Both the position numbers and the translations under genes were made by a program. From positions 1,188,501 through 1,252,500 of the forward strand of contig OX359193.1 of the NCBI GenBank assembly GCA_947172415.1: a DNA stretch of 64,000 nucleotides, in the 5' to 3' direction. Below the pieces are notes generated by a model, which worked only from the letters and a program-made list of their open reading frames with translations, made no database searches and had not been told where the DNA came from. The DNA is from Chondrosia reniformis (Eukaryota; Porifera; Demospongiae; Chondrillida; Chondrillidae). Below are positions 1-53,793 of this stretch, in pieces (positions within the stretch are counted from its first letter, which is position 1; every line of letters starts with the position of its first letter).

Positions 1-3000
1 CTATAACACAAATTGACATTACTTTTAATCAGTAATTTACATTTTCTTTCTCATTCAGAAATTACGGGCATATACGTAAACCTTACTCACTGGCATATGT
101 TTCAGCACTTGAAGTCTCACTCCATGCTCCATTTCCAACATCAGACACAGCTCTCACTCTCACTTCATAAGTAGTTCCAAGTTGGAGGTTCTCCAATGTA
201 GTTGACGCAGTAGTTGGGTTGGGTGACATAGTACTCCAAGTAGTACTACCACTGACCCTATAGTCTACTTGGTAATACTGTATTGTACGGTCATTTTGAG
301 GAGCAGTCCAACTAACATTTAGAGATGGCTGGTTGGTGATCACTGTTTTAGTTAATGTTACAGCAGTGACCTGATCAGGAACTAACGATAGAAATAATAG
401 ATATATGTAATTGGTTGTAACTTCCTCAGATACCGGTAGACACTAGACTCCAATTACACAGTTAATTAGCATATTATATATCCTTTAGCTTTTAAGAAGA
501 TTAATCCTACCATCAACTGTTGTTTCACTTGAAGTATCACTCCATGTTCCATTTCCAACATCAGACACAGCTCTCACTCTCACTTCATAAGTAGTTCCAA
601 GTTGGAGGTTCTCCAAAGTAGTTAATGTAGAAGTTGGGTTGGGTGACACTGTACTCCAAGTAGTACTACCACTGACCCTATAGTCTACTTGGTACTGGAG
701 GCTCAGGTCATGCTGAACAGTCGTCCAGCTCACAGATAGAGATGGCTGATTATTGGTGACACTGCTAGACAATGCTAAGCCAACAACCTGACCAGGAACT
801 AAAGATAAAATAAAAGAAAAAAGGAGTGACTCAATTAGGGAGGTTGATAATTGCATTTTCCTTCTCATTCAGAAAATACGGGCATACGTATACCTAAACC
901 TTACTCACTGGCATATGTTTCAGCACTTGAAGTCTCACTCCATGTTCCATTTCCAACATCAGACACAGCTCTCACTCTCACTTCATAGGTAGTTCCAAGT
1001 TGGAGGTTCTCCAAAGTAGTTAATGTAGAAGTTGGGTTGGGTGACACTGTACTCCAAGTAGTACTACCACTGACCCTATAGTCTACTTGGTACTGGAGGC
1101 TCAGGTCATGCTGAACAGTCGTCCAGCTCACAGATAGAGATGGCTGATTATTGGTGACACTGCTAGACAATGCTAAGCCAACAACCTGACCAGGAACTAA
1201 AGATAAAATAAAAGAAAAAAGGAGTGACTCAATTAGGGAGGTTGATAATTGCATTTTCCTTCTCATTCAGAAAATACGGGCATACGTATACCTAAACCTT
1301 ACTCACTGGCATACGTTTCAGCACTTGAAGTCTCACTCCATGTTCCATTTCCAACATCAGACACAGCTCTCACTCTCACTTCATAAGTAGTTCCAAGTTG
1401 GAGGTTCTCCAAAGTAGTTAATGTAGAAGTTGGGTTGGGGGACATAGTACTCCAGGTAGTACTACCACTGATCATGACCCTATAGTCTACTTGGTAATAC
1501 TGTATTGTACGGTCACTTTGAGGAACAGTCCAATCAACATTTAGAGATGGCTGGTTGGTGGTCACTGTTCTAGTTAATGTTACAGCAGTGACCTGACCAG
1601 GAACTAATGATAGAAATAATAGATATTACATGTAATTGCAAGAGTTTGTAACTTCTTCAGATACCGGTAGACACTAGACTCCTATTACACAATTAATTAA
1701 CATATTATATATCCTTTAGCTTTTAAGAAAATTAATCCTACCATTAACTGTTGTTTCACTTGAAGTATCACTCCATGTTCCATTTCCAACATCAGACACA
1801 GCTCTCACTCTCACTTCATAAGTAGTTCCAAGTTGGAGGTTCTCCAATGTAGTTGATGCAGTAGTTGGGTTGGGTGACATAGTACTCCAAGTAGTACTAC
1901 CACTGACCCTATAGTCTACTTGGTAATACTGTATTGTACGGTCACTTTGAGGAATAGTCCAACCAACATTTAGAGATGGCTGGTTGGTGGTCACTGTTCT
2001 AGTTAATGTTACAGCAGTGACCTGACCAGGAACTAATGATAGAAATAATAGATATTACATGTAATTGCAAGAGTTTGTACGTACCTTCTTCAGATACCAG
2101 TAGGTCGACACTAGATCGACTCTTATAACACACTTAATAATTTAACATATCACATACTACATACTATTCTTTAACCTTTTGATTAATCTTACCATCAACT
2201 GTTGTTTCACTGAAAGTATCACTCCATGTTCCATTTCCAATATCAGACACAGCTCTCACTCTCACTTCATAGGTAGTTCCAGGTAGGAGGTTCTCCAAAG
2301 TAGTTGATGTAGTAGTTGGGTTGGGTGAAACTGTACTCCAAGTAGTACTATCACGGACCCTATAGTCTACTTGGTACTGGAGGCTCAGGTCATGCTGAAC
2401 AGTCGTCCAGCTCACAGATAGAGATGGCTGATTATTGGTGACACTGCTAGACAATGCTAAGCCAACAACCTGACCTGGAGCTAAAGATTGTAATAAAAGA
2501 AAAAAGGAGTGACTCAATTAAATAGGATTGAAAAGAAAGGATAGTCGATATATGTAGGTACGTATATACACACCTACATACTTGACAATCTGACCTGTCT
2601 TTAGACAGGATCCCAGATCTAACTTGTTTTTAACATTGAATTTGATTTTATTCAGAGGTGTTTGTAATATTCCAATATTTTCAAGTGACCAATCAAAAGA
2701 AATAGAAATATAGTAGACCGGGGCCCTCACTTATTTAAACCTGACAGATATGCCCTAGATTCAGATGTGTAAAATGACTGCAAAAGTGAAGCAATATAAG
2801 ATAGTACTGGAAATTTATGCATGTCCTCAAGGCGAGTATAATTCTGGTTGCATAATATAGAAATACACACACTATACATATACGTGGTTTACAAAATGAA
2901 GCTTATGGTAAAAGTTTAACATCTGCTACTTGGAACCTCTTCTAAAACATCTACAATGAAATGTTTTCTAATATTCAGTATAATACGTAGGTACTTAATT

Positions 3001-6000
3001 AATACACTGGGTGTAATAATTAAAAAATACCGAATAAAAAACCTTGTGGCTATTCAGAGTTGTCTTAATAATACAGATGCTTTAGTATCTTCTTTACAAA
3101 ACCTATTTGCATGTAGTGCTCTTATAAATCACTTATCGTCAAAAGAAAACTAGAAATTATTGACTGCGGATTCAAATTATGTGGATTGCACTGTATGTAG
3201 TAGTTACATATGATTTAGCTGAAACACCTAAAGCTACATCTATTATTATTATACGTACGTGTATTGTACATACGTATGGGATACATCTGGATATAGATTT
3301 TGCTGTCAATTAATGAATAAAATGGAAGCCACAAAGGTGTGGGTTTCCAAAAAACATGTTTAGTCCTGCAGAAACATTTCAATCTTAATTACTCACTGTT
3401 GTATGTGGTTTCGCTTATGGTATCACTCCATGTTCCACTTCCAACATCAGACACAGCTCTCACTCTCACTTCATAAGTAGTTCCAAGTTGGAGGTTCTCC
3501 AAAGTAGTTGATGTAGTAGTTGGGTTGGGTGACACTCTACTCCAGGTAGTACTACCACTGACCCTATAGTCTACTTGGTAATACTGTATTGTACGGTCAC
3601 TTTGAAGAGCAGTCCAACTAACATTTAGAGATGGCTGATTGGTGGTCACTGTTCTAGTTAATGTTACAGCAGTGACCTGATCAGGAACTACATAAAATAG
3701 GTTCCATACATGCATATTTCTTAAGATAGGACTAAGTTCTATTTTTATACTGCTTTCATTTTTACTTCTGGTTACTATGCTCATCTCATTGATATATACA
3801 TACTGTACATACATTCGTAGATATACGTATATGAATATACTGTATTTGTCCGTATAGAGGTCGGGATAAAAATTAATGGCCAGGTCTCGTTTAGAGATTG
3901 GGCTATTCTTAAATAAAAACTGGGTCTTAAATAGCGGCTGAATCTCTCTAATCGACACGCCAGGTGAGGTGTGAACCGATCGCGACATCTGACCAGTTTC
4001 CGTAGCAGTAGCGATGTTAAAGCTGTAATTTTAGGCTTTCCTTTTACTGCCGTTCCTTATATTGATTACCTATTATTGAGGTAATTAAGGGTCACAATCA
4101 TTGATATTACGAGTATACATAAACCCTATAGAGTGAACAAGTAATGGTGTGTGGTCAGAGAGCCCATGAGTTTTAACTAGAAGTACTTGTTCGTTTTGTT
4201 TCCATGAAATTAGCTATAATATTATAATTCACCTATAAATATCACATCCTGACTTTCGCATAGAGGTATATAATTGTATAAATCATACTTTCATATGTGT
4301 CAGCACTTGAAGTATCACTCCATGTTCCATTTCCAATATCAGACACAGCTCTCACTCTCACTTCATAAGTAGTTCCAAGTTGGAGGTTCTCCAATGTAGT
4401 TGAAGTAGACGTTGGGTTGGGTGAAACTGTACTCCAAGTAGTACTACCACTGACCCTATAGTCTACTTGGTACTGGAGGCTCAGGTCATGCTGAACAGTC
4501 ATCCAGCTCACAGATAGAGATGGCTGATTATTGGTGACACTGCTAGACAATGATAAGCCAACAACCTGACCTGGAACTAAGAGCAAAAATTAAATACTTA
4601 ATAAATAAAAACAACTAAGCTGGTTTGAAATTCATAAATGCTAATTATATAATAGAACATCTATATGACAAAATGGTTCAAATAATCAATGTAACTTTCA
4701 TTGCTACTTACGTACATATAAAAAATTAAACAAATGTCATGAAAGTCCGTGAGTAATAGGTCAACAAACACTTTAAGTATTTAATATATACAAATCAAAG
4801 TATTTTGAGGTTAGAAAGGGATTGAGACAGGATTGCAAGCTTTCCTTATGGCTATTTTACTTAGTGAGTGATAGACAAGTGATAGACAAAGGTAGTGGCT
4901 GAATCCAATAAGGTATAAAGATATCAAATGACACTTTACATATAGAAGTATTGTAATTCACAACTATACCACAATATGGGTGGACTAAAGAATGAAGAAA
5001 TTTAGAGACAGACTGCTATACGTAGATGTGGAGTGCTGGAAAAAGTAACAAGAAATCAGCTGAGTTGTAGAGAGCAATTACTAAAGAAAGTAAAGTGATA
5101 CAGGTAGGAGAAATAGATTAGAAATAGTTTACTATATATACTGAATATACTATGTAACTATATAGGATGGCCACGTACATATGTTTATTTTGTGGGAAAT
5201 ACTTTTTAATTAGGTAAATAGATTTACAGATTAATGCCTACATTAACATTCAAATACTCACTGGCATATGTTGTGGCACTTGAAGTATTACTCCATGTTC
5301 CATTTCCAACATCAGACACAGCTCTCACTCTCACTTCGTAGGTAGTTCCAAGTTGGAGGTTCTTCAAAGTAGTTGATGTAGTAGTTGGATTGGGTGATGC
5401 TCTACTCCAAGTAGTACTATCACGGACCCTATAGTCTACTTGGTAATACTGTATTGTACGGTCACTTTGAGGAGCAGTCCAACTAACATTTAGAGATGGC
5501 TGGTTAGTGGTCACTGTTCTAGTTAGTGTTACAGCAATGACCTGATCAGGAACTAATGATAGAAATAAAACATTAAAAAATGAAGTTAGAAGCAGAGAAG
5601 GCATTGCTTGCAACAGTGACTAGTTATGAAGCAAGACTGAGAACATTTGATACGTAAGTCTTACCATACAGAAGTGGCATAACAAAATTCCTTAATCACA
5701 CACATCACTTCTATGTTTAGGTACCTGAAGTAGGGATGATGCAACCAAACATAGAAGTGATGTGTATAGTTACGTACGTATGTAACTGAAAATTGCATTG
5801 TGTATATATATAAGGTGAATGCTGTGAAGACTGAAACATCGGGCTGAAACGTCCAAATTTGATAAAATTGTGTTGCTGAGACTCATTTGAATGCCTTTAT
5901 ATATATGACTGCAACAAATAATCTGTATCATTTCATATACGTATAAGGTGATAATTGCTAATACATTGAATAGGGTAGCCATGTTTTTTCTGCCACCCTA

Positions 6001-9000
6001 TACTCTTAATTGTCTGTAGAGTGATATCAGGAATTTCACTGTACTGTCAAAGTAATATTTTGACTTCAAATGTTAAGAAATGCAAGTGGAAGTCTTATAA
6101 AATGGGTTTGTTGTCTGTAAGGCAGCCACTATCTGTCCTGGTTTCCCCAATTCCAATGCATATACTGACAGCCACCCAGCTGGGGAAGTACGTACATTGA
6201 CTCGAAAAGTCCTCTTTCTGAGTCGTTGGTGGCTGCCAACTTTGACAAGCCTAAGCATAGGGATAGTATGGAGGGGAGGCACTTCCCTATTAAACATCGA
6301 TATCCCCTGTAACGGGCATTACCTTTCTCTTTTTATGTAACGGGCTCTACTCTACTCAAAGGCCCTACTCTACTCTAAGGCCCTATCATTGGCTAAGGCC
6401 CTACTCACCTATTTCTATATCATTGTGTGCATGGCAAGGCAGGGTTGACCAGGTATGTGGCTAGGCTATGATAAGGGCCATTGAGTAGAGTAGAGGCTGT
6501 AGCCATCAACTCTTCCCTCCAGTGGGATGGGCCCTGGGACGATTGGTTAAGATGGCCCCTCCCACTGGAAATGGGCTGGGTCTCTGATTATCAGCTAGTT
6601 CTGATAAAATCACCACAAATGATTTAAATGGTTGTACACTTAGTTTGTATATAGGTATAGGTATTATAGGTGTTATAGGCATTTTACGTAGGTATTATAG
6701 GTATTATAGGTGTTATAGGCATTATAGGTACATTATAGGTATTATATGTAGGTATTATAGGTAGTATAGGTGTTATAGGTATTATAGGCATTATACGTAG
6801 GTATTATAGGTATTATAGGTATTATAGGTATTATAGGTATTATAGGCATTATAGGTATTATAGGTATTATAGGTGTTATAGGTATTATAGGTATTATAGG
6901 TATTATAGGTATTAACATGAATGGATAATTGCCATGGCAATCGTAGGAACACTGGTGGTCATAACCACAGTTTTGGGGTTGATTCTCAGCAATTCTTTCT
7001 TCCCTCTTTGCTTCATGATGTTTTTTATGTGATTACTTGTGGTTTGATTATCTCCAGGTAATAAATTTGATTCACAGTCCAAACATTAACTGTTGTAACA
7101 CTTCTAGTATATATATTTGACATGTAATGTATAAATAAGTTTGCAAAATTAAAGGCCCATACGTACACGTACTTTAGGTAAGTATTTTGTAGCAAATAGT
7201 TTTATCTAGTGACTGCAGTTTCATCAAACAAATCTTACTATCAACTGCCGTTCTACTTAAAGTATTACTCCATGGTCCACTTCCAACATCAGACACAGCT
7301 CTCACTCTCACTTCATAAGTAGTTCCAAGTTGGAGGTTCTCCAAAGTAGTTGATGTAGAAGTTGGGTTGGGTGAAACTGTACTCCAGGTAGTACTACCAC
7401 TGACCCTATAGTCTACTTGGTAATACTGTATTGTACGGTCACTTTGAGGAGCAGTCCAACTAACATTTAGAGATGGTTGACTATTAACAACATCTGCTGT
7501 AATTGACAATCCAGTGACTTTAGAAGGAGCTGCATATGTATATAGAATTACATAATATATAATTATTACTTATTTACGTAGGTATTGGTGATTAATGTAT
7601 ATAGAACAATCTAATAGAGTACCTCAATGATGGATGTATACATTTCAAGTTAATTTCAAATTCTACTGATTCTAATACAGAAATGCAGTTTATCTTACGT
7701 GCTAACGTGGATACACTTGATCTTGTACTGTATGTTCCTCTGCCATCAGAGGACAAAGCAGCCACCCACACATTGTAACTTGTGCTAGACGACAGTCCTG
7801 TCAGAGTGGTTGTTGTGCCAGTGATTCCTGACACACTATTTGCTCCACTTGGAGGTATTTCTGTTGAACCATTACTAGTTGAGTACCACACTGTGTAAGA
7901 TATACCAGATCCTGACACTGAACTCCAGGACACAATTATGCTAGATATTCCACCAGTTAACGTTACCCCTTCAACTTGAGCAGGCAGGTCATTTGCTGAG
8001 AATCAAGTGAAAACAATGTGTATCTTGACAATTTTTCTTCAAAATAATATTTCCAATTAAAAGAGTGCAGTGTACTTTTAATTGGGAGAAAGGCAGATTA
8101 ATGTTTTTCATTCAAAGTGCACTGCACTCATTGCAACATGTCCTGTGACTACATATATCACCAGACCATTTTCTGCCCATTAAAAATGGCTGACAGAAGT
8201 TGGATGTGAATGAGAAACCTAGCTGTTTACATTTCTTATTTTAATGGCAGCATACACTGTATTAATGAAATGGTCATGCAAGAATTTGATACGTACCTTC
8301 ACAAACAACTCCTGAATCTTCTTCATGACCACAAGATAATCGTAAATCATCTTCATGAGTACAGTTGTACAGAAAGGTCTCACTTCCACCACATTGGTAC
8401 TCTCCAGATATACCACCTGTTCCTTCACCAAAGTAAGCTGTCGTTCTCACTTGTAATGCATTACTGTACCCCAACTGGCGACAAGCTACTCTGCCGTCAT
8501 TAATATCCCAGAGATCGTCACAAATAGTGTTCCACTGATCATTGAAATGTATTTCAATTCTACCCTCAGCACTGTTACGACCATTAACAAGACGGAGATT
8601 TCCTAAAGAAACACACTTGTAGTATAGAATTGTACGATTTAACTTCAAACTTATCATATGTACCTCCACACACAGCACTTGCATCCTCAGTGTGGTCACA
8701 GAAAATGTCTTGATCCACAAAGGTACAATCTGACAGACCCTCTTCACTACCATCACAGTTGACTTCAGTTAGTCCGACTGTCAAGCCTATACCTTGTCCA
8801 AAATGGGCCCTTAATGGTGCCTGTATGGCCGCTTCGTATCCCAGCTGACGGCAAATGACCAAAGCATCTTCAATATCCCAGGAATCATCACATATGGTGC
8901 GCCAAGCATCATTTAAGTACACTTCAACACGTCCTTCACTCTCATAATCCCCATCACGTAAACGCACAAGTACTATACATAACAATATATTTAGTGTATA

Positions 9001-12000
9001 CTGATTTTGTAATAAGTCATTTAATTAGAATAACTTACTTTGTGGAGAAGGTGTGGCTGTTGTGGAAGTTGGGGAAGGAGTGGCAGATGAAGAAGATGAT
9101 GTTGTAGTGGCAACTGAGGAAGATGCTACTGCTGTGGTTGATGAACTGGCAACAGTAGAGCTGCTTGTTGTAGGACCTTAACATCAAGAAAGCTTATAAC
9201 TCATAGTATAATTGATGGCTGCATTTAGGGGTGTGGTCTTACCTGTATAGCCTGGACACACAACTCCTGCATCCTCGCTATGCTGACATACATCTGTGTT
9301 AGTTTCGTGGCTACAGTTTGCCAATATGGCTTCAATTCCTGTACAGGCAACTCGTCTGAAATGAATAGGATCCGAGCCTTCTCCAAATGAGGATACTCTT
9401 GGTGTCTCTGGACCAGTAAGTCCCAATTGATTACAGACAACTAGAGCATCGGTAGCATCCCACCCATCATCACAAACAGTACCCCATGCTCCATTAATGA
9501 AGATCTCCACACGACCAGCATATTGACTATTGGCACCTCTAAGTCTAATGTTACCTAACCAAAAAGAAATGATTTATTTTATTCTTAAACTTTTACAGAA
9601 AACTAACTTATATTTTAGATTGAAATGTCAAATGTCAATAGACACTAAAGAACTCAAATATAAAGACACTATACTATTGTTAGCCAAATAAAGTATGTGA
9701 TTGTCTGCTTTGTCACATTGTAACATATATATAGATTGATAGATAGAAAACTACATGGTTAATTGGTTAATAAGAACACCACAGAATGGTATACTGCATG
9801 TTATGCGAATCACATCTACATATATCTGTACATACCTCCACAAACCACTCCAACATCTTCATCATGTCCACAAAAGTTATCAGCAGCGTAGGAACACTGT
9901 AGTATGCTATCTTCTGTTCCTGTACAGTCAACTTCACTTAGCCAAATTCTACCAGATCCTTGCCCAAATGAATTGGCTTGATTGGCAGATGGGAATCTAA
10001 TTACCTGTTCATACCCCAGCTGACGACAGACAACAGTAGCTTCCTGCAAGCCAAAGTTATCATTACAGATAGTACCCCATACTGACTGCATGTATATCTC
10101 CACACGTCCTTCAGAACTGTAGGAGCCCCCTTCTAGTCTCAAGTCACCTACAGGGTATTACTAAGTGTAAACGTTTATTATGACACATGTTAAGGTATAT
10201 AATCAGGATCAGTAACTGAAATTGGTAATACAAAATGCGGGTAATGATTAAGAGCATTGCTATTTGAGTAGGGAGGGAGGGAGGGTTATGTTGTTATGTC
10301 TATAGTCTTCTCTCAAACACTTTACCTACAGACTTATACTATTATAAGACTATTTAATATGTACGGAATGCATACGGAATGCATACGTACTTAGCTAGGC
10401 GTATAGGAATGATTTATCGCTGTGAGAGTCAAGCTATGTGCAGTACATAGTTTTGGGGGAGTGTCGACTGAAGCTATACATGTGCAGCTGTTATAATAGC
10501 GTTGAACTAAAGCGTTAAGTGTAGGAGCCCCCTGATAGTCTCAAGTCACCTACAGGGAAAGCACCAAAAACTGAGCCTCTACATTTGACTCTGTATACCT
10601 ATGGTGTGTTGACATTACAAATACAGCAAAATTCAAAATGTCAACTAAGATGCAATTTTATATGTCTGGGCTTATAAAAACAAATTTTAAAAAGGTCACA
10701 TTTACCTTGAACTGGCTGTCATGAATACAGGTAACACATATAGGTAGTATATAGGTAGAAGGAAAAACTTCATGCATACGTAATGCGTCATAGTAGTATT
10801 TTGGAGTAACTGTCAAAAATTAGCCTGATTTAGTTATATACGTACACTATTGTCAGTAAGGATTTTTAAAGACATTATATTAATATCTTGCATCAATTTG
10901 GGGTAGTCCTTGGTAGCAGGTTCTACTGAAATCGTTTCTTCAGGTGGCAAAAATGGAATTAACTAGGCCTTTTTAGGCATTGGCTTCTATTAGGATCTGT
11001 ATTGAAAATTAATACTACAATGTATGCCATGTCATTATTAAAATAGAAGGATATTCAAAAATGATACATGTACAGTATAAGTTTACATCAGGAAGTACAT
11101 TGTAGAAAGCCTTTATTTTAAAATAATGAGTGGAAATATCAAAAATGTTGATCTTATTGGTACGTACTTGTAACTAATCATGAGTAATCAATATAAAACA
11201 CTATCTTCCTATGCCGATAACCACAGACTCTACTGGCCTATGAGAGTGGCTGAGAAATTATAATACAAAAGTAGTATACACATCCAGAGCTCTCCATTAG
11301 GTTTAGTTCTCTATAGGCCTTTACTCTAGAGCAGATCTAGCATGGTGTATTAGATTATTTATATCTACATGCTAAGGCATTGCAAGTGGCAGAATGATCC
11401 AGGGTCAGAGTGAACCACTGCTTCCCAAGTGAAAAGGGCCAGATATAGGGTCATATGACAAAACTGAAGTTTTCTGCTATCAATAAAGTTCCTGAAGGAA
11501 TGCATAATTTGAAAATGAAATTTCACTGAAGCATGTCAACGAATTAGAGATCCTTAAGTTTACAAAACATATTCACACATACAACATCATTTCAGAATCA
11601 CTTTCAAGGTTCCTATATATCCACAGGCATGCACTAAGCATATGTAACCTTATTGGTATAAGTGTAGGAATTATAACATACTCTGACACAAGATAGTAAT
11701 GTATAAGCTCAAAGCTGCTATAAGCTACTGTCATAGCTATCGAAGATAATATCCACGTATTCGATTCACTCGCCTTAAGTGGTGTAATACTTAGTATGAC
11801 ACATTCACTTTCTTTACGCTAATCAAACTACTACTAAGAATCCATAGTGTACGGTAGTGATTAAAACCGCATTTGGAGGAGTGAAGCCATTTCCGTAGGG
11901 AGGGAGGGCTTGTTGTATGTTTCGATCACCCCCCTTCTCGGTCTCATAAACATCTTACTTAAACACTCGTACATATACGGAATGCATATGTACAGAACTA

Positions 12001-12361: not shown

Positions 12362-12899
12362 GACTTGGCAAACCTTCTTCTTTGAGAGAATCGAGTTCTC
12401 GCTCCCATATATGGCAAGCACTTCCTATCGATCGATATTAAAATATAATACCAAGCTCGCGAGGAATAAACAATATATCTACCGACTGTGTACCGATCGC
12501 GATATACAGTTATATATACCGTCGATCGTATACCTAATAAGCATGTTGTTGAGTTAGTATATCAATTTAAAGTGAATATGATCAAATAGTTATATACTAC
12601 GTATAAATGCTAACTTAAAATTCCTTTGAATTAATGTTTTGAGAAAGTTTTAAGATATGCGGAGTGCATGCTTGTACCTTTCCATAGAATTTGAATTCAT
12701 TCCAAGAATATTGCCCTCTTATTTTGAAAGTGTATAGTCTAGCTATATAGCTGTGTATATAAGACATAAATGGAAATTAATATCCTTATTTATACATGTA
12801 TATATATATAAGGAGGAAGGTGAGCATATACATGTTGACGAAGGAGGTACAAAGCTGGGTATAATGAAGGAAATTGCGAGCCTTAATTGAGTTTGAGTC
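12362..12899. other. Intergenic, upstream of gene E
   Basis: Upstream flank of gene E. No coding sequence, TATA box in a convincing position or repeat recognised. Confidence 0.4.
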
Positions 12900-13670: not shown

Positions 13671-13675
13671 ACACA

Positions 13676-40315: not shown

Positions 40316-40494
40316 CCTTTTCGACCGACGTTTAGCTGGTTCCGCCCCTATAAGTAGGCGTGCATATGCATGGGGCGCACGTGATCAAAAGTACAGCCAA
40401 CAACACAAATAAATTTATAAGGGCATACGTATAACCATACATACTGCATGTGAAGACTATATATAAGGCTTCCAAATATAGTTTGTTATATTTT

Positions 40495-43400
40495 CTATTT
40501 CTCATCACTGTCAAGGGCTTCCAAGTTGATCTTCACACCATCATCCTGATTGTTTACAGCCGCAGGATGGTACCCAACTGAATACTTCCCCCTTTTTTTA
40601 GTTCTAAACAGTCAAGAGGAAAAGAACCTTCATTAGAGGCAGAAATGTATCTTTATCAAGTTCTAATAATAGCTATATAGTATTTCTGAAAGCCTACGTA
40701 TATAACAATCCAAAATACCAATACAATAACTCTCAGATAGTTAACGGCCAAAGACTTACAACAATACTGCAATGACTCCAACCACAACCACCACAACGAC
40801 AATCAGAATGATCCCCAGCACTACAGGGACCACAATGGCAGCAACATTAAACCTCCCAGCCTCTGGGGTAGGTGGTGATGTACCAGAGGACCCAGGAGCC
40901 TAAAAAATATACAAAACAAACAATTCTCACTAGCAACACTGCATAAATAATCTTTCTATGGACTTTTACTAACATCAACGTATAAGGTTAATGAATTGTG
41001 CATGATCTCTGCAATCTATTCATGTGCTTATTCTAATACTTGTAGGAAGTACAAATGTTCCTAGAATTATATACACATAAGCTTCTAAGATGTCCAGCTT
41101 GGAGCAGCCATCGACAGCCATTGCTGGCATTTGTCCAGTCCCACACATAAGATGAAGAAGGCACAGCTCACCTACTATCCTGTGCCTGTAGGAACTATAA
41201 CATTTTATCTGTTATTACGTCAATGTGGCATGCTAGTTTGGCTTGACTAAAAAGTTATAGTTAGGAATGCATGTTGTCACCATCTCTCTTTCCTCCATTT
41301 ATAGTCATTCTGTTATGCTACTACTAATCTTAGTCTTCATACTGCACAGATATCCTAGTGTACTCATCAACTGATTATCTCTTTTTTGTTTGCTGTGTGT
41401 AGTGCTACATTGGACCACATTGAGTCCTACAGTGCCACCAGCATGGTGCACTTTAATATTGAATTGAATTGAATTGAATTGATATACTGGTATATGTGAC
41501 TTAGGGTTTGGAAGAAGATGTATCACATTTTTAAATTCTCTCTTTTGGATCAAAACAACTTTTTAAGATTTCCTTCACCAGCAACCTGGCAGTCGTCGTC
41601 TTTTTTGATCTTTGTGAATTCTTGGCATGCACTTCATATATTATGACTAAACATTCAACTCACTTGCACAGCTGCAAAACTAGTAAGATGACTACACTGA
41701 CAGTACAAGAACTCAGAAGTCTCCCTCTCCACTTTGCAACCTTCTTCAGACCAAACACCCAACCCATCTACACAAGCAAACCACAATGTAAAGATCCTGA
41801 GAGAATTATGCAATCAACAAAGTTATAGCAATGTTTACAGTCAATGTTGACCAGGAATTGTTAGATTGGCTCACTAGTAGTATCCCAGAATCTGCATGTC
41901 ATTCTCATACCATCAGTAACAGCCTGTAAATATCAAAGGTGAAAAAAATCAATCTGCAAATACGTACTTGCCAGGTACGTATGTATGTAAGTAGTACAAT
42001 ATGTACAGTATCTACACATTCACCATTTTCTTCCTCAGTCTGAACCTGATGGGATCATTCAAATCAGACACACTCTCTCCCAAGATTGATATAGTGAATA
42101 CTGAACTGGACACAATCAGGCTTTTATTTCTTCCAGAAAAGATAGTTTCAGATATTATGGCACTACTGATGCGAACCGACGTTGTACTCAAGCTTCCAAA
42201 CACAGAAGGAGGAATGGTAGCCTCAGCATCATTTCTTCCTGGATGGCTCACAGAGAAACCAGCTGAAGGTATGTTTCCAACTTCCATCTCAGTGGCAATG
42301 AGTGAAAACTTTGACTGACTCACTGAAAAAGTCATACCACCTGTCAAAGTAATGCTGCTGCTAATGCTTTCAAATATACCCACAATTCTAAAGCATTAAA
42401 GTAAGTACATACACATACGTATACTTATATGAAAGTATATAAAGTAATAAAGTTCCCTTCACCGACTCACTTACCTATTAGATGTCTCAGATACTTCACT
42501 GGTTTCCCGTAAAACACTCATATTTACAGAGAGAAGAGAATCAATGATGCTGAGCACACCACCTCTTATCTGTCAATGTAAATAAATATAAAAGTACAAT
42601 AAACCGAAAGAAATAAACCTTATGGATGGCATTGTAGCAGAGACAATTTATAGGGACGGCGGCAGCTCTTAAAAAGTGGGAAGAGATCCATCTTTCATGG
42701 AACTGGGTGGCAAAACATTTTTACTACCACTACACTACTACTACTGAATTTGTTGAAGAGTCTCATTAGTGGGAGCCTGAGCTAAACTTCAGAATGTAAT
42801 ATTTTTTGTCAACATCTGTGTTTATAAAGCATAATACACTCACATGGCATGGGAGCCATGTTTTCTTGCCTATTCTACTTATAGTATTAGGGTATATTAG
42901 ACACCATTTTACTGTAATCTGTAGTTTGTGAGGCTAATTATATATCAAGCATGACAGTATACATATAAATAGGAAGGAATTTGTATGTACATCTATGATG
43001 ATAGTTGTAACATTATTTGTAAAAATTTAAGTCTTACTGTAATTATTGATAATGTGTACTTACAGTGGCATTGTTGATTAAGTTGTCATTCAGTGAACCT
43101 GCAATCACATTAACAAGTGTTGCTACATCACCAGCTTCAAGTTCACTTAGCTGGTTACGGACATTCATAACGACACTTAGTGGATCAGCTACACCCTATA
43201 AATAATGAATGGACGCCATTGGATATTATAACACCCTGTGAAATTAAATGAATTTGTTTGAATTGAAGTACTAATCTATCTAAAACATTAATCTTTCAGA
43301 GACAGTTTAGAGGATCAATCTCAATGTCTTCTACAGAGGACACTTAGCCGGGAAACTTCAATGAAAGTAGTATACTTACATATTAATACTGGGTGCCTAG

Positions 43401-46400
43401 AATAGTAGCCAATGGCTAAAGGCCTCCCCAGTTTAAATAAGATACTTGACTTGACTTGACTTGACATACAATATTATGGTTCTTACATTGCACAGTGATT
43501 CCAGAAACATTCCAGTGCAAGCTTCATAATCTGTATCCATCCACCTTCCACCTTCACCACATCTTCTAAAAGCAAACAGTCCACGTGTCCACTCTGCTGA
43601 CTCCTCGCAAGGACACCTAATTCTTGCTTCATCTCCATAGAATGTCAGTGGCCAACTAAATTGTTCATCTAGCTCCAAGATTTTCTCGGTAACAGCAGGA
43701 CAAGGAATACCTAAAAGAATTGACAAAAATCCCTGAAACACCATAGGCAGAGACAAGTGGATACCTCGTAGCGACAACTAGTTCTAGCATCCTGCTCTGC
43801 ATGCACTAGTTAATTAATGAATGCATATAATGATGACTGAGAGTTTCAGAAAGACTATACTTACTAGGTACAACTGTTGGGGAAGTGCTAGGTCTTACAG
43901 AGGGAAAAACTGTTGATGGGGATAGCGAAGCTGATGTACTAATCACTAGAGAAAATTCAAGTCAAAAAGAGACCAATAACATTTGAATCCTTGAATTTCA
44001 TCCATTTAGCTGTTTGTTATTTATGAACTAAAGTATGTTCTTACAGACTATATCTTCACAAGATGCTCCAGTAAATCCTTTGGGACACAGACAGGCACCA
44101 AGGTCTGTACAAGCACCACCATTGAAACAGGTATAATTACGACATCTTGTAATACAGTCTCGTGCACCTGGCCTACCTGCAGTATGAATCATCAGAGCAC
44201 ATCACTTATATTAGAATATAACAAGGTATGTACGTACGTGCTTCTGCATCAAATGATACCTTAAATGACTCGTCTTTAAAACCTTTTGAGTATCAAGCAA
44301 AGATACAGTTTAGATTTGGAGGTATTCTACCAACAAACTACATTTCTAGCTACGTAGATGCTTAACAAGTTAACAAAATTAAAAAGAACTCATGGGTCTG
44401 CCACCCCTGCACCCCAATAACTTGGTCGTTTCTTAGGATTAAGATTATGTGGTTGCGATCTTTATGATTCTGGACCCTTATTAATTATAAGTATCCTCAA
44501 AATTAGAAAGAATGCTAAAGATAGGCAAAAACGTTTAGTAATTTAAGCTTCCCATGGCCAAACATCACCATTTGCAAATTGAATATGTTAGGTATAAACA
44601 AAGTATTAATATACAGAAAGTAAAAATGAAAACTATATAGAGGTTGCCAGGTACAGGTAGCCCCTGAAAAGTGACCATACAAAGGATTAAATGCATATTC
44701 AATAGTAGACTTACACCGATCACATGCTTCGCCAATGTAGGGCATCGTACAAATACAGACTCCATTTAAGCAGAAACCATTCACACATTCTGGATCACCT
44801 GGAAGAGAGAATCAGTAAAATGTTGAAAAGTAGCACTTAAAGCACTACAGCCTACAGGACACTCTGTACATACGCAATAGGATAATGTACATATATTAAT
44901 TACAAGGGGTGTTTACTTTATCAGATTAGGAGAAGCTAATTTAAGGTAGTGAGATTATGCAATCATTGATAGAGTTGTGTTCTAAGAATTACCTTTTTCT
45001 ACATACAACAACAATAATAAATAACAAAATCTATCAATATTTGTGAATTAAGTGTAGTGTGAAACATTATGTGGAAGGTGGCTTGTATGTTAGTTTTGGC
45101 TCATCATGATCGGAGGTTGTACCCTGTCTAGAGAACTCACATAATGCTACCTCACAGTTTCTGCCAGTGAAGCCCTCTTCGCAGATACACTCATCATCTT
45201 CATCACATTTACCATTATAACAGTAGCAAGCGCCAGCTATTGAACAAATACATAAAAAGATACGTATGTATATACACATGTACATACGTAAGAGAGTGGG
45301 AGTTGATATATACATATATGTATATAAGTGCACAGATAAGCTCTTTATGGTCTTTGGAAAATATGGATTCTTGGATGATTAGAAGAGTTAATCACTGGTT
45401 GCCATTATAATAGTATTTTGGTCTCCCAGCCAAGATAAGACCATGGTCCCTAGGCTGTTTAGGCATCAATTTTAGGGTGATTCATAATTATGTCACTTGT
45501 TGCAGGCATTATAATCATGTATCTTGGTTCCTTGAGCAGCACTTATTGTACTGGTATTAAAAACCTGCCAATCGGTGTTGTGGATACTCAATGAAATCAT
45601 CATAATCACCATAGTCGTCATCATCACCCAGGATTACAACAGCTATAGCCTACCTGTTACATTCCTGCAGCTAATTCCTGTAAAGGGTTCAACACAATCA
45701 CAACTTCTACTTGTTTCATTACAAGTGCCATTGTTGTAACAATAGATACTGGATAGACAGGAGACTCCATTACAGAATTCTTCTCCGCAGGCAGGACCAG
45801 GGGCTGAAAAGAATTAGTAAATTAGTCTATTTACTGTATACAATGGATGAATTACGATGTATGATGCCTCAGAGACTGTATGAAAGTGCAGCTAGGTGTA
45901 GGTATTTCAAACATGTAAGAAATTAGGAAGGAAAGAAACCTATATATTTTCCACAATTCAATTGTGTTTGTTAAGGTCATCTTCTACTGTATGCTCTATT
46001 TACATGTGTACATCTATCTCACCAATTTCACAACTTTCTCCTGAAAATCCCAAATAGCACTGACAGGCCTGCTCATAGCAGGCACCACCAATGCAGGGAG
46101 GGTCACCTAGGTAACGCAGCAAAACAAGGTTGTTTCAAAAGTATAAAATTTAACAATTGACAAACAAAAGCATGGGTGATCATCAAAAATATGTAGTGTG
46201 TAATTCTTACATATGCCTCGTAAATCCATTTCACAAAACTGTCCAGTTAGGTCTGGAAGGCACTGACACACAAAATCATCATCGCACCTCCCTCCATTCA
46301 AACAAGGGCATACTGTGGATTGCAAAGTAATACACTACCAAGTTACTATTGAACAGTGGATATGCTGCATACATATATACAAAGTTAAATAAAAACATTG

Positions 46401-49400
46401 AAAAATGAAGTTAAAAGTAGAGATGGCACTATGACAGTGATTGGCACATCTAGAAAAAGTAACGAAACAAGAAAGTGATCACATGGTAAGGCTAACATTG
46501 CAGAAGTGGCATACTAAAACTTAACTATACACATCACTTCTATGTTTGGGCGCATCATGGATATACTAGAAGTAGGGATCGATAGATTATAGATTATTAC
46601 CTGGCAACCATATTTTGAATCAACTTGGTCAAATTTAGTGTGGCAATAGTGTTGTAATTCACAATTATAGTCCAATAGAAGATATCGGAAGAATTAACAA
46701 ATTCTCGAAATAAAACAGTAATAATTCATAGCATGCTTAAAAGCAGGCAGGCAGTTTCAGTCTTACCAGTAGTAATATTTTCACAGTAAGCTCCAGTATA
46801 TAGAGAAGAGCACCTACAAGTTCCTTTTTCTTCATTGCAAGTACCATTATTGAAGCAAAAGAAGTCTCCACAAGTTGGTCCAGGAGCTACAACATATACG
46901 TACAAGCAAGGCCACTATAGGAGTATCTGCATGATAACAATTGAAGGGGCAGATTGCACAATGCCTGTGCAAGGCTAGGATGTGACATAGATAACCCTTG
47001 ATGTATTGTACCAAAGTCCCACCTACAGTATGAGTGTTCAATGTACGTACGAGACCTACCTATTTCACAGCTGTTCCCTCGGAAGGGATAAGGACAAGAA
47101 CAGTAACCATCATAGCAAGAACCATTGTTTTGACAATCAGGTATACCTGCAGAAGATTTAATGGCCATGTTAAAAAAGTCATATTTCATTATATGTAGGT
47201 CATTTGGAGGACTTTTGGAGGATCTGGTGATGAATGTTGGAATTCTCTGAATCAGCTGTCTGGCCCAGTTGGCCCAGTAAAGAAATAAAATGATAGTTAT
47301 ACCCACTGGCTTATATCCTTATACAAGGTTATATGTACTTATGTGTACAGTATGTGCATAATAAGTAAAAAGTAGTATCTTTGGTGACTTATGTACATTG
47401 GATAACCTACGTACATATAATCTATTATAAGTACTGACCTCATGACACTTGAAATAAATATCTTACATAATATATTAGTGTATACATACAAGGTATGCTA
47501 TGGTACTACACAACATATACATAGTACATTTATACATATACATAGTAATTACTTACACATTCTATTATTGCAGGCAAATCCAGTGTAGTTTTGTTGACAA
47601 ACACATGACTGGGTAATATTGTCACATCGTCCATAGTAACAAGTTTGCTGATTGAAATCACAATACTTTGCTTCTGGAAACAGTAAAACAAGCCAAAAAT
47701 GAAGAAATTACTGCAATATTAGATTAATGTCTTATATATATGTAAAGTATATATACTTATTGTAAGTTCACCGTGCTAAGGTACTTACCAAATTCACAGC
47801 TCTTTCCATAGTAATCAAAAGAACAACTACAGTAGCCATCAAAGCAGGAGCCATTGTTCTGACAGGCTGGTATGCAAGACCTGTATTGGCAATACGGAGG
47901 CTCAAAGCCTTCCTTACAGTTGCACCTCTGCTCATCTACATCACATGTCCCATTAAAACAGTAGTATCCCCCGCATGCAGGACCAGGAGCTAGAAGTAGG
48001 CAATTGAGAAAATAAAAGAGGAGGATTTCAAATTAATTGATTCACTTACGAATCTCGCATCTTCTACCAGTAAATCCAAAAGGACAGTAACACTTTCCAT
48101 TATAACAGGATCCATTATTCAGACAATTTGGATTACCTGTAAAGGTAGAGCAGAATCATGACTATTTAGATTGAAAAATCAAGTAACTAAATTTGCAACA
48201 TAAACTCACAAATTTCTCTTCTACATTCAGGTCCAGTAAACCTTTCTGTACAAATGCAAGTGTCTCTATCACTGTCACATGTTCCATTATTCCAGCAGTA
48301 GCTACCATTACAAGCTGGTCCAGGTGCTATGTTGAGGGATTGAGGAACATTCAGTAATACATAGTTGTACATACGTGTGTACGTATGTATCAAAGAAGTG
48401 TAATATAATATCTTACGAATGTTACATGTTGTCCCATTAAATCCTTCAATACAGACACATCTTCCATCATTACAATAACCATTTTCACATTCTGGTTCAC
48501 CTAACGTTTGGAAAACAAAAAATAGAAAAACACTAATTAATAAACCTTTAATGCATTGGAGTAATGTACAAACATACATATTTCTATTTCACATCTTTCC
48601 CCTGTAACGTTTTCTCGGCAATAACATGTTTCATTCATGCAAGTGCCTCCATTAAGACAGTAATCACAGCCAAACATGTCTATATGTGGAAATGGGTCCA
48701 GAAATAGAATAAGGGAGTACAGTATATATCACTATACATATACTGTATGTACAAGTATGCAATACTCCTTACATGTCTCACAGTATTGCCCAGTGTAACC
48801 ATAGTAACAGGTACAATTCATCCCCTTGCAGATATAACTGCCATTGGGATTACAGTAGGTCTCGCCTGCATAAAGAAAGGATATACCACATTCGTCCGTA
48901 TAGAACCGGGTCTCGATTAGAGACTGGGATCTCTTGAATCAACAAGGTGAGGTGTAAACCTATCGTGATGTGTAGGTTGCAGTAGCAATTCTCAGCGATG
49001 GTCCTACAATGGCTCCTTCAAGTAAAAGGTCATGAATCGTGTTGCAAATAAGACTAAGTAAATGGCTGCTAGGAAGATGGGCACAGACGCCAATCTAATT
49101 ATTTTATAGAGCCTGGCTCAAATAGAGAGGCTGGGCTTGAATTTTGGCCAGGTCAAAAAAAGCTGAAACCAAATACAGGCCTGGACCTCCTATTTGGACA
49201 AATACAGGCCTGGGCCTCCTATTTGGACAAATACAGGCCTGGGCCGCCTATTTGGACAAATACAGGCCTGGGCCTCCTATTTGGACAAATACAGGCCTGG
49301 GCCGCCTATTTGGACAAATACAGGCCTGGGTCGCCTATTTGGACAAATACAGGCCTGGGCCGCTTATTTGGACAAATACAGGCCTGGGCCTCCTATTTGG

Positions 49401-52400
49401 ACAAATACAGTATGTATATACGTATGTACGTACATATGTCTATATCAAAACTATAAAGGTTTATAGACAATGACGGTTAACAGTTACATGAAAGAAGACA
49501 CTTACAAATAGTGTCTTCACAGTTGTATCCAGTGTAAGGATAGGGGCATTCACATTGATCATTGACACAGGTTGCATTATTTCTGCAAATAATTCTACTA
49601 AAGTTACCACCACAAACTTCAAGTTCTACAATAACAAGAATATAAGCAATACATAAATTCAATACAACTTCTTAGAAATGTTAATGCTACTGACCAATGT
49701 CACAAAGCCTTCCAGAAAATCCAAAAGGACACGAGCAGTATCCATTAAAACATGATCCATTATTCTGACAAGGAGGATCACCTGTAGGGAGTGTATATGT
49801 ATGCATTTACTACACTTGAAGAGTATACTTAGAGAACACCTTGTGGGCTTTACCTCATATTATTCTTTTCCAAATTATATACATACCGTATATAAGTAGT
49901 TATATAGTTATTCCTAAGTACGTATTAAACTCTATTCTATTTGTATTTTTCCTTATCCTTTTTTGATGTCAACAGAATATTTAGAGAAAATAGTGTTTAT
50001 TACATATAAAGTTGAAAAGTTTGTTTTTGCACTACTCTTAAATGAAAGTTGGCAACTCTTTGAATAATCTAATATAGAGTACTCACAATCTCTGTATCTA
50101 CAGTAAGGTTGGAGGAATGGTTCCGGACAGTCACAGCCATTACCAGTAGCATTACATGTACCATTATTGTAGCAATATGACCCAGCACACACTGGTCCAG
50201 GTGCTGCATGAATAACAAGGGTACACATTTAAATAAAATGTGTTTATTGTTATATAGATGTATAATAACACAATTCCTATTATTATGTAATAATACTTTG
50301 TTTCCTATACAAAACAGCATTGGAAGTGTTAAGTGCTTAGCTTTACAAATGTAATTTACGTACTTCTTTCACAGCGGCTTCCACTAAATCCAAATTCACA
50401 AGAGCAAAAGTTTTCATAACAACTTCCATTATTTTGACAAGGTGGTTCACCTGTAAATTGAGTTGAACAGTTTATATCGTGTTTGCCCTAATTATTATAG
50501 TGTACTGTTGCGAATGCTTTACCATAATTAATAATCTAACATTACATATCATTCTATCACCTAATTCAACTGTTGGTGCCAAATACGTATGAATGGCTGA
50601 ATATTATATTAACGTTTCAGCCTTTCATGCCTTTAGGAAGTTACAAGTGGTCCATGCATGTGTGCATACATACGTACGTACGTAGTAAATGTGATCATAG
50701 CTAAAGGCACATCAAATCTGTTGTTGTTGTTAACTGAGATCCCAGATTGGCTATTTTTAGAATAAATTAATGAATAGGATCTATTTGTAGCTTGCACTGT
50801 ATATATTGAAACTAATTGGTATTAAACTTATATAGATAGATCTTGCATCGTGAACATCAGGAATGTGAAAGTAAATCAGCTACGTATGTATGTATGTATG
50901 TATGGAAAACCAAACATACGTAAATAAGCAAACCTGGCCTCACCTTCAGTTTCTACTCAAATGTAATGTAGTGACTTTTCATAATTCAAGATCTTAATAT
51001 ATTCTGTTTGCATGTTACATGCATTAGTCAATTAATATATGTTTAACTTTAAAGCAAAAGCAAATATCAACAGGTACAGGGCACACTAAAAAAATTAGGG
51101 GATTTAAGGTCTAAAGCCAATCTCAAAGCTTTGATTGTTTACATCATTTGACTCTGAATTAAAACCCCAGCCAATTATGTCTCCTGAGGTCTGTTCATGT
51201 ATGTACGTATTTAATTGGCATAAGTACGTACTATGACTGTAAAATTTAAAATTTGAATATTAAGTCATGACAGTCTGAGATGTGCTCTAAATAGAATAAA
51301 CTCACAAACACTTATAAGACATTGGGTTCCAGTGAACTGACTAGGACAAGAACAGACACCATTATTACATGTACCGTTGTTGTAGCAGATTGTACGGTTT
51401 GCAGCATTGCAGATGTTTAATTCTGTGAGAAAATTTAAAAGAAATTAAAACACTGTAATTATATTAGATAACTGTAAAAAAGGTAACAGGAGTGCATTGT
51501 GTGTCTTGTCACTGTAAACACATGCAATGCCTTCATCAATTACAATAACATTTTTTTCATGCAACAATGAATAAGCTGCAATGTGCATTAAAATGATCTT
51601 TAATCGTAAGTACAATTTTAAAATGCTGCAACAATTAATTCACATTTACCTCTTTCACATCTGCTTCCAGAAAATCCAAATGGACAGGTACAAGTGTTCG
51701 CATAAGAGCATGTCCCATTATTCAAACATCCCTCTACACCTAATATCAGTAGATGGTAATAACACAACACCTTTTTGCTCACTTTTACTACCAATTTCGA
51801 AGTTACAAGGTAATATCTATCAACAGTAAAAATGTTTTTTTTTTCATGACAATAGATTACTGTAACATTTGTTTTTTGATTTTGTTAATGTATAAAGGAT
51901 GACAAAAATATGTACAGTATGTAGTCACATGTATGTGATCGATTTCTTCTAATTGTGCACTTATCTTTGAGATGGTTCATCTTTAGTCTGTTGAGCATCT
52001 AGAAACGCAGTTGGTTCTATTAGATTTTGACGTTCCGACCCTGGGGGTATCTTCAGCAACTGAATGTTCAGGTCTAAAGAACCAACTGCGTCTCTAGATG
52101 CTCAAAAGACTAAAAGTTGAAAGACATGTGATCGATGGTAAAGACAGGGATCATTTAATGGAAAGAGGTTAACTGATAACAATAAAACAGACCCTTGTAA
52201 CCGGAAGGCTTCATGCTTAGAGTACGTAGAACTTACATATTGGTTCATCACAGTAGATTCCTCTAAATCCATCATAGCAATGACACATTCCATCTCTACA
52301 GTCACCGTAGTTACAGGTGGTGAAATCACACAAATCTGTGTACACAATGACAGAGGGTCAGCTATGAATATAATCATGCAGTATGAATACTATTAAAAGG

Positions 52401-53793
52401 GTGACCTTAACAGTTACACCCACATTTCCTTTATTCTGTATTAGAGCAACTACAGTGTAACCCTTAACTCAAACACAATGATCATTTTATTCTAATGCCA
52501 TATTGATCTCATTAAACTCTGGATATTACCCCTGTCCATATGCAGAGTTTAATGATAATATATCAATGCTTTAAGGTCGGCTTCTGATATTAAAGTTTCT
52601 CTATTTTCCATATTGGTTTGTTTAAGAGAATGTATTGCAGTCAGAGTGACTCCTTACCACTACATGATGAATTCAATGACAAGGAGAGGCTTTTACTGTC
52701 ATCAATTTGTCTGTTTTGATGTCTGCCCAATACTGTGACGTTCTGCTGTTCCATGACAGATCCATCCCATGCAAACAGAAAGTAAAAGGATCTATTAAAC
52801 TGCATGTCCTGAGAATCTCCAGTAAGTCTTGGTCTGGTAAATCGCATGGATGTCACTCCATTTTCTACTGCTGAAGAAACATTAAACAGATTTTGCTCGG
52901 TATCTCTTGCTGGCTGCTGCCTTACATTTCCAACGTAACTTTTTTATGCAAAGAGATATATTAAATGCTCCTTATCAAAATCATCAAATTTGATTGCATT
53001 AAATATAATACTCACCCGTCATACCATTCAAGGGAACCCCCAGTTATCCACCCAATCACTATATCTGAGTTAGTCTATATATATACAAGGAATGTATAAG
53101 AATATCAGAAATACATATTACCAAAAAAGTGCTATATTATAACAGTCATTACTTAAAGTTTGTAAATTACAAAATAACAGTTATATATGATTTACCTTAC
53201 ATATACATAATAATAATAATAATACTTAGGTTTTTTGTTATTAGAAATGTATATATATATCCATTGGCAAATTCTACAAATTCCACTGAATAAATGACAA
53301 CAATCATTGAAAGATTGTGACTAGTTTTACAAACTAAGTCAAGGATAAGATATAATGCAAGCAATTAACATTCTGTTAATTAAACGCTTCAACCTACCAT
53401 AAACATATCATCAGAAAATCCAATACCAACCCAACCTGTTGTTCTAGCCGAAATATTGAAAGTGACATTGTCGTCTCTTCTCAAACAGTAGGTCATGCGA
53501 TAATAGTTGTCTCCCACCGAGTATTCGTAACTGTCATACCTGCAACAAACTAATAAATAAGAAACCAATTTATTTTATTACTTTTGGAAAACATAATTTA
53601 AGAAAGACTCACTTGCGTCGGATGACTGTGATCCAACAGCAACGTCAACTACAGTGTAAAGGAAGAAAATATTTGGTATAGTATTTGCCAGTGTTCCTAT
53701 CTATGATCACTTAGATGGATTTATTTTCCTACCTGATAAAACGGTTACGGTTAGCAGGAACACAAGCCGAAGGGAAGCCTTTAAACCAACCAT
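40495..53793 (-). CDS. Gene A: DOMON - EGF array - HRM-like - GAIN/GPS - single TM protein
   Basis: A large single-pass surface protein, roughly 1400 residues. Exon 1 (53733-53793) encodes MVGLKASLRLVFLLTVTVLS; exon 2 (53613-53648) completes the leader. DOMON exons 53398-53549, 53016-53074 and 52658-52938 follow, then about 22 EGF exons (44045-52335), a Ser/Thr/Pro linker (about 43863-43948), an HRM-like exon (43487-43710), GAIN exons, a GPS exon (41664-41767), a TM exon (40760-40899) and a terminal exon (40495-40603) coding TKKRGKYSVGYHPAAVNN and ending LDSDEK. The GPS reads CQCSHL^TSF, intact for autoproteolysis. After one hydrophobic helix and a basic stop-transfer the protein ends, so it resembles the ectodomain of an adhesion GPCR on one helix. 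The order of some small EGF exons is approximate. Confidence 0.78.
40760..43710 (-). other. HRM-like, GAIN, GPS and TM cassette of gene A
   Basis: HRM-like exon: PCPAVTEKILELDEQFSWPL, GDEARIRCPCEE, AFRRCGEGGRW, ACTG. GAIN exons: 43078-43200, about 42478-42570, about 42012-42390 and about 41851-41930 (ending MTCRFWDTT). GPS: GVWSEEGCKVERETSEFLYC then QCSHLTSFAAVQ. TM: GRFNVAAIVVPVVLGIILIV followed by valines. The NVA.IVVP.VLGI core is shared with gene C, so the two cassettes are paralogous. Confidence 0.82.
49171..49420. repeat. 29-bp minisatellite in gene A intron
   Basis: About eight copies of tacaggcctgggccgcctat plus ttggacaaa, nearly identical, between EGF exons. All frames are open because 29 bp cycles through the frames. 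The 5' side (48889-49000) resembles a dispersed repeat also seen at about 3845-4020. Confidence 0.85.
51992..52110. repeat. Inverted-repeat element in gene A intron
   Basis: gagcatctagaaacgcagtt near 52000 pairs with aactgcgtctctagatgctc near 52085. The loop carries gacgttccgaccctgggggt and atcttcagcaactgaa. Probably a short non-autonomous element. Confidence 0.6.

Follow-up and report, generated by a model that had tools for sequence, protein, structure and literature searches.

In adhesion G protein-coupled receptors (GPCRs), the GAIN domain cuts the protein at the GPS motif and the two halves stay associated. Polycystin-1-like proteins were called the only other GAIN-fold family in a 2025 paper (PMC12488864). 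SRCR-bearing seven-helix adhesion GPCRs have been described in the sponge Amphimedon (Aq712029 and Aq715659; PMC4302439), and Halichondria panicea has been screened for GPS and seven helices jointly, with 57 found (PMC8242945). Here we describe a stretch of 64,000 nucleotides, hereafter the window, on chromosome 5 (C5) of the sponge Chondrosia reniformis (C5 positions 1188501–1252500), in which five successive minus-strand genes, A to E, encode mosaic extracellular proteins. We consider it probable that this is a tandem cluster centered on single-pass receptors that are predicted to cleave themselves. These receptors resemble an adhesion GPCR in its extracellular half, but have one helix where membership of that family would call for seven.

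A Shared 3′ Unit With a Predicted Cleavage Site and a Single Helix

Genes A, C, and E end in the same unit, and of the GAIN/GPS-transmembrane end that an initial annotation of the window had assigned to A and C, the assignment to these two genes stood. It was incomplete, as the unit is also present in E, outside the window at −4.6 to −7.0 kb, and in A′, a second A-like gene upstream of the window (89.8–72.0 kb, window numbering) that has a duplicated EGF block. A fifth copy, P, lies at C5:580k, 0.6 Mb from the window. None of the five 3′ units (A, A′, C, E, and P) is broken by a stop, and their exon phases match. They measure 378 to 417 codons with the stop included, end in a tail of 32–41 residues, and follow a common pattern of exon lengths (200–251, 126–132, 95–98, 313–373, 49–58, 101–104, 122–140, and 100–127 bp). 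Pairwise identity was 63.8% for A and A′, 34.8% for P and A′, 33.7% for E and C, 33.6% for P and A, and 24.5–29.9% for the other six pairs. The middle of the GAIN exon is nearly identical by eye in A and A′ (42387–42024 and 73955–73607, minus strand), versus 64% over the whole units, as if by gene conversion.

The GPS scored over the curated Pfam cut-off in all five units, and their alignment showed invariant C281, W284, W293, C298, C310, C312, H314, and L315. The cleavage consensus, an invariant HL followed by S or T, was intact in 5/5. When a profile built from the five units was compared with the PDB, 23 sequences matched at E ≤ 0.01, all of them adhesion GPCRs, partly under older names (BAI3, latrophilin-1, CELSR1), the best being ADGRG6 (2.4e-23, positions 76–364). 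The HRM match was under the Pfam cut-off where it was seen and none was found in C at E ≤ 0.01; the wording “HRM-like” in the initial annotation is therefore the right label. We read the ends of A, A′, C, and E as the extracellular core of an adhesion GPCR set on one helix with a 32–41-residue tail, so that the core of the membrane receptors A, C, and E would be a cleavable unit of adhesion-GPCR type without the seven helices. Onto this shared unit are set ectodomains of DOMON and EGF (A), Ser/Thr repeats (C), or SRCR and FN3 (E); the same modules recur in B, where the anchor is a plain SRCR one, and in the helix-less D.

No tyrosine signaling motif or domain was seen by eye in the five tails. 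Three of them (C, E, and P) end in S/T-x-hydrophobic, namely TSTL (30004–30112), TSSM (−6999 to −6891), and TTLL (C5:579581–579680), an ending that we take to be a possible PDZ ligand.

Gene Models and Domain Order

Long frames on the minus strand can be seen directly in the window, as can tandem arrays, and spliced exon models together with Pfam bore out the five successive minus-strand genes and the modules proposed for them. Genes were sought in the window and adjoining stretches with a small self-written gene finder, after which exon borders were set by hand; the finder, including a second-order model, fused adjacent genes, and gene ends were set from stops, helices, and signal-peptide-like exons. 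The exon models have AG/GT borders and unbroken phase, the only flags being the expected absence of a splice site at first and last exons. Pfam was run, with stops read as X, on the minus strand of 10,201–16,200, 19,101–24,850, 28,301–39,000, and 39,701–54,000, and selected exons were scanned separately, while in E the exons for SRCR and FN3, and in D some of these, were assigned via high identity to exons scanned with Pfam. The features are as follows.

40495–53793, minus strand: gene A, with signal peptide, DOMON, about 23 EGF-like domains, and Ser/Thr linker, then the 3′ unit (stop-free model, Pfam).
52658–53549, minus strand: DOMON of A, three exons (152, 59, and 281 bp; phases 1-0, 0-2, 2-1; DOMON 2e-25).
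40495–43710, minus strand: 3′ unit of A, with HRM-like segment 43710–43487, GAIN 43195–41875, and GPS 41767–41664 (HL|T).
40899–40760, minus strand: transmembrane helix of A, with the tail at 40603–40495 (35 residues; exon model).
37937–39692, minus strand: gene B, with two SRCR domains (39692–39381 and 39309–38989), Ser/Thr stalk, and one transmembrane helix (SRCR 5.3e-61, four exons).
30004–37270, minus strand: gene C, with signal-peptide-like exon 37270–37214 and Ser-rich repeat exon 34847–33885 (homology and exon model).
33826–32453, minus strand: ten 81-bp Ser/Thr exons of C (exon model).
32160–31961, minus strand: HRM position of C, opening its 3′ unit, with GAIN and then GPS 30881–30778 (HL|S; GPS 1.5e-15).
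30696–30575, minus strand: transmembrane helix of C, with the tail at 30112–30004 ending in TSTL (exon model).
13676–29190, minus strand: gene D (43-exon stop-free model without a helix; Pfam).
20833–24785, minus strand: first EGF_CA array of D, 17 exons of 123 bp (EGF_CA 3.9e-78; dN/dS 0.19).
20113–20736, minus strand: DOMON of D, three exons (140, 56, and 281 bp) with phases as in A (DOMON 1.3e-23).
17350–19104, minus strand: second EGF_CA array of D, 9 exons (tandem array and exon model).
16162–17151, minus strand: Ser/Thr stalk of D, 51-bp repeat, 43% S+T (tandem array).
13676–13908, minus strand: C-terminal exon of D, 77 residues, no Pfam match (69% identity to C5:572201–572431).
1–12219, minus strand: in-window part of gene E, with signal-peptide-like exon 12219–12154, four SRCR domains (10147–8297), and 11 FN3 domains (exon model).
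7607–10225, minus strand: segment of E that is 93.9% identical to D 25970–28620 (2,670 aligned columns), introns included.

Gene A is intact, with an ATG at 53793 and a stop at 40495, and comprises 36 exons and 1,419 residues. The model of B (4 exons, 355 residues) is left open at its 5′ end and tail, and no signal-peptide exon was found for it. C has 20 exons and about 1,000 residues, D 43 exons and about 2,640, and E 32 exons and about 2,860; these three have in common a signal-peptide-like exon, found by homology, that ends in QGQ(S/D)E in the same phase, and their ATG would lie in an exon further 5′. Once spliced, A, C, D, and E each have a single in-frame stop, the last codon. One helix was found in each of A, B, C, and E and none in D, the extra hydrophobic stretches being a leader in A and one weak stretch (1.64) in E. 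D, whose spliced model lacks a membrane helix, appears to be secreted.

From the signal-peptide-like exon (29190–29125), D runs through four SRCR, three FN3, and 17 EGF_CA domains to DOMON, and then through nine EGF_CA domains, the Ser/Thr stalk, two FN3 domains, and one EGF to a conserved C-terminal exon. Further copies of this last exon, at 38–39% identity, are present at C1:9100036 and C1:9088580, and AlphaFold run on the single sequence gave an uninformative model, with a mean pLDDT (predicted local distance difference test) of 53.3. Gene E continues beyond the window edge to about −7.0 kb with six more FN3 domains, a Ser/Thr stalk of 353 residues (56% Ser/Thr), the HRM-like segment (HRM 0.0011), GAIN, GPS (1.4e-13), the helix, and a tail ending in TSSM.

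The proposed sharing of SRCR by B, D, and E agrees with a Pfam match of 5.3e-61 in B, one of 7.3e-21 for the first domain of D, and, for E, identity to D (three exons, 97.4–98.7% at the DNA level). That A and D share DOMON was likewise correct, the same three-exon phase pattern being present in both (2e-25 and 1.3e-23); the corresponding values were 3.9e-78 for EGF_CA and 5.8e-24 for FN3.

GPS Loci With and Without Seven Helices

The genome that we scanned comprises 15 contigs and 117,379,552 bases, of which C5 accounts for 8,804,818. GPS exons numbered 92, and a same-strand match to the 7tm_2 domain lay within 5 kb downstream in 61 of them and was absent in 31. None of the 95 genome matches to 7tm_2 (150 of 153 candidates scored) fell on C5, which holds 12 GPS exons. 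A, C, and E lack the seven-helix 7tm_2 domain: their spliced models show one helix followed by a short tail and a stop. We inspected 22 of the 31 GPS loci without 7tm_2, namely A, A′, C, E, and P and 17 more read in raw frames. A strong helix closely follows the GPS at all 22, and at the 17 further loci it (2.5–3.7) starts within about 0.6 kb past the GPS.

SRCR exons within 25 kb upstream, counted no further than another GPS, were found at at least 9 of the 31 loci without 7tm_2 and at least 5 of the 61 with it, these counts being lower bounds because they draw on the best 150 of 893 candidates, excluding the window’s own SRCR exons. DOMON exons counted in the same way were found at 5/31 and 2/61, respectively. 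Two arrays of such exons were also observed. Thirteen DOMON exons about 1,004 bp apart, each scoring 33.7–34.4 bits, occupy C5:1073181–1085414 (plus strand), a short way upstream of the GPS at C5:1088785, which lacks 7tm_2, and at least 25 SRCR exons spaced at about 545 bp, many with the same score, occupy C3:6337224–6350581 (plus strand), upstream of the GPS at C3:6358058, which likewise lacks 7tm_2.

Module Exchange and Exon Turnover

The 5′ segments of D and E align over 2,670 columns, among them intron sequence, at 93.9% identity, in a stretch that spans the four SRCR domains and the first FN3. Past this shared segment, D goes on to EGF and DOMON, and E to FN3 and the GAIN unit. The DNA of the first SRCR exon (SRCR1) is 97.4% identical between E and D and 92.6% between E and B, with a range of 91.3–97.4% among the three genes, and yet the 3′ unit of E is only 24.5–33.7% identical to the other four. 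At the other end of D, the last two exons share 63% and 69% identity with exons near C5:572k, where a D-related gene carries a stalk, EGF, and a Reeler-like part. D is a chimera, with a 5′ end like that of E and a 3′ end like that of the C5:572k gene. Since SRCR1 is 91.3–97.4% alike in B, D, and E though their anchors are unrelated or absent, modules have moved recently between membrane and secreted proteins.

The exon arrays, which the initial annotation had called homogenized, are so: the 26 EGF exons average 93.3% identity, and for 22 of the 24 EGF-array introns, compared within length classes, the averages were 92.6–100%. The copy-number turnover that it had expected is supported by the 93.9% identity of the D and E segments, by the near-identical array introns, and by the repetition of A as A′.

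Selection on Exon Copies

Selection was gauged by Nei-Gojobori-style counting of the ratio of nonsynonymous to synonymous change (dN/dS) among exon copies. The 26 EGF exons gave 0.18, indicating purifying selection, and FN3 gave 0.65 (11 exons) and 0.64 (8 exons), with 19 of the 22 FN3 exons falling in the same length classes; the only class above 1 was that of the ten Ser/Thr stalk exons (1.47). When exons of D were paired with those of E, with SRCR2 excluded for unequal length, the nonsynonymous proportion (pN) was below the synonymous one (pS) in all five pairs compared, although barely so for SRCR1 (0.025 vs. 0.029). With values above 1 confined to the stalk, the data do not support a recognition role under diversifying selection, and on dN/dS we rejected such selection as the origin of the exon arrays. 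The arrays instead reflect fresh duplication, with EGF under constraint. A part for the cluster proteins in self/non-self or microbe recognition is one that we infer as a possibility.

Other Features Near the Cluster

Near-identical hydrophobic exons lie upstream of A (61856–64000 and beyond the window, minus strand) and of A′ (91.0–93.1 kb); they are possibly TRP-like. Three in-window frames of the set upstream of A gave no Pfam match, and an ankyrin exon (Ank 2e-12) adjoins this set beyond the window edge. An open frame at 56627–57379 (minus strand) matches a protein kinase (4.2e-21), and a frame at 54147–54454 has a C..C..H..C pattern, which we take to be reminiscent of the end of a retrotransposon. 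Tandem repeats are found between modeled exons at 6656–6914 (9-bp unit), 19872–20016 (32-bp), and 49170–49410 (29-bp).

Discussion

On the anatomy of the cluster as described above we place high confidence, and we take its proteins most likely to be cleavable, sheddable adhesion or recognition receptors. In the mechanism that we propose, GAIN would cut itself near the endoplasmic reticulum membrane, with the halves remaining joined non-covalently, and the modular arm would bind cells, matrix, or microbes. Force or ligand might then pull the arm off, which would end adhesion and release a soluble binder. Signaling, if any, would depend on partners, for example PDZ scaffolds or an adhesion GPCR with seven helices that shares the membrane. 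The shedding mechanism is a plausible proposal that we hold tentatively.

Several observations weigh against single-pass, self-cleaving receptors. The HRM match is under the cut-off in four of the five units and unseen in C, ATG-based scans missed the signal-peptide-like exons, and these exons were read by homology in C, D, and E. The raw-frame helix scan was noisy, with more peaks at 10 of the 17 further loci; the same helix sequence occurs twice, 2.25 kb apart, at C5:742731–746000 (L021), and a second strong hydrophobic frame follows the first by 0.4 kb at C10:6594897–6598100 (L030). In a looser scan, 2 to 4 peaks were present at 7 of the 17 loci (highest 2.76–3.68), and at some of the nine GPS loci without 7tm_2 that lie outside the 22 inspected, such as C11:5898872 beside 7TM (seven-transmembrane) siblings, helices may have been missed. 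For the EMR2 one-helix construct, cleavage is described as not quantifiable (PMC12488864). Three 7TM control loci gave 5, 5, and 7 peaks in the looser scan (highest 2.88), so that peak number by itself does not tell the two groups apart. What argues against seven helices is therefore mainly that 7tm_2 matches are absent, that a stop follows the tail, and that the spliced models show one helix, with peak counts carrying less weight.

It is rather unlikely, in our judgment, that the cluster encodes adhesive or matrix proteins without a recognition role, long rods of calcium-binding EGF and FN3 in the mesohyl whose homogenization is a by-product of repeats. The 26 EGF_CA and five FN3 domains of the helix-less D, the purifying selection on EGF exons, and the D-related gene at C5:572k with its stalk, EGF, and Reeler-like part would all fit such rods, but these would leave unexplained both the intact GPS site kept in A, A′, C, E, and P and the exchange of SRCR between membrane and secreted forms. 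Errors in the gene models, by which D and E, or A and B, would be a single transcript, are suggested by the fused genes of the gene finder, by the missing start codons of B to E, and by the lack of a signal-peptide exon for B; we regard them as quite improbable, given that A ends in a stop, that homologous signal-peptide-like exons are present separately in D and in E, and that the stop exon of D has a paralogue. D and E as one gene we rejected, on their separate signal-peptide-like exons and the conserved stop exon that ends D.

Very improbable, too, are degenerate or alternatively spliced adhesion GPCRs whose seven helices have been lost or are still hidden. The GAIN is of adhesion-GPCR type, two more hydrophobic raw frames lie within 0.8 kb downstream of A, and Drosophila Cirl has a one-helix variant alongside its 7TM receptor (PMC13197933); against this, tail exons bearing a stop are found at the same phase in five genes, C5 lacks any 7tm_2 match, and the first exon seen of the next gene is 0.8 kb past A. 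We also think it unlikely that this is a hypervariable recognition locus for sorting self from non-self or microbes, in which balancing or diversifying selection would make the exon arrays differ from one individual to the next. Tandem genes, SRCR domains, and recent exon turnover would be expected of one, and in the accounts cited here an SRCR gene and a gene termed a GPCR from its GPS motif respond to microbial signals in Aplysina aerophoba (PMC6208332), while the largest share of receptor genes in Halichondria panicea is expressed in an individual-specific manner (PMC8242945). The dN/dS of 0.18 among EGF copies and the excess of pS over pN in 5/5 D/E exon pairs argue otherwise, and the turnover taken by itself would also be compatible with unequal crossing-over in repeats.

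Returning to cleavable single-pass receptors, which we favor, we compared them with known systems. The aggregation factors of sponges are built of Calx-beta, VWD, and Wreath domains; in the Pfam scans, which took in part of the window, there was no match to any of these. The cluster resembles the sponge SRCR superfamily in its tandem SRCR genes and in EGF_CA, the commonest partner domain in Amphimedon, but the term GPS is absent from the main text of that account, and no DOMON or GAIN units were met in the parts of it used here (PMC10855680). Among the literature matches listed, which extended to titles and the beginnings of abstracts, with preprints and most subscription papers outside, single-pass HRM/GAIN/GPS sponge receptors appeared in none.

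In the sea urchin, SpREJ1, 8, and 9 belong to the polycystin (PKD1) family, and the sponge receptors are like them in being GPS-family proteins with a single predicted helix; the sea urchin proteins bear a full or partial REJ (PMC1934368), whereas the sponge GAIN profile leads only to adhesion GPCRs in the PDB. Pfam scans of most, not all, of the window gave no match to REJ, PKD, or PLAT, and tails of 32–41 residues leave no room for PLAT. With adhesion GPCRs the sponge units share the order HRM-like, GAIN, and GPS, ectodomains of SRCR, EGF, and FN3, and the cleavage consensus, and differ from them in having one helix, a tail of 32–41 residues, and no 7tm_2 match nearby or on the chromosome.

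An adhesion-GPCR extracellular core on one helix is found also in the Cirl variant and the engineered EMR2-1TM (PMC13197933, PMC12488864). The former appears to pair with the seven-helix form (PMC13197933), and the EMR2 construct with the first helix only is cleaved and is the sole shortened form to reach the cell surface (PMC12488864). Unlike these, a variant of a 7TM gene and a laboratory construct, the sponge forms are separate genes. A self-cleaving receptor on one helix is a little-described, testable form, and the cluster offers defined gene units with which the binding of sponge cells to neighbors, matrix, and bacteria could be tested; a sponge one-helix family would also bear on whether GAIN began in adhesion or shedding or, alternatively, as a GPCR part. 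It is possible, though we remain more doubtful than convinced, that polycystins and adhesion GPCRs are joined in sponges by a third GAIN class, a large, gene-encoded family of self-cleaving receptors that cross the membrane once and bear exon-shuffled recognition arms, used as mechanically sheddable receptors for adhesion or microbe binding and maybe pairing with seven-helix receptors. Such a one-helix family, if true, would break the statement that polycystin-1-like proteins are the only other family with a GAIN fold (PMC12488864), and it would be the natural counterpart of the one-helix constructs made in the laboratory.

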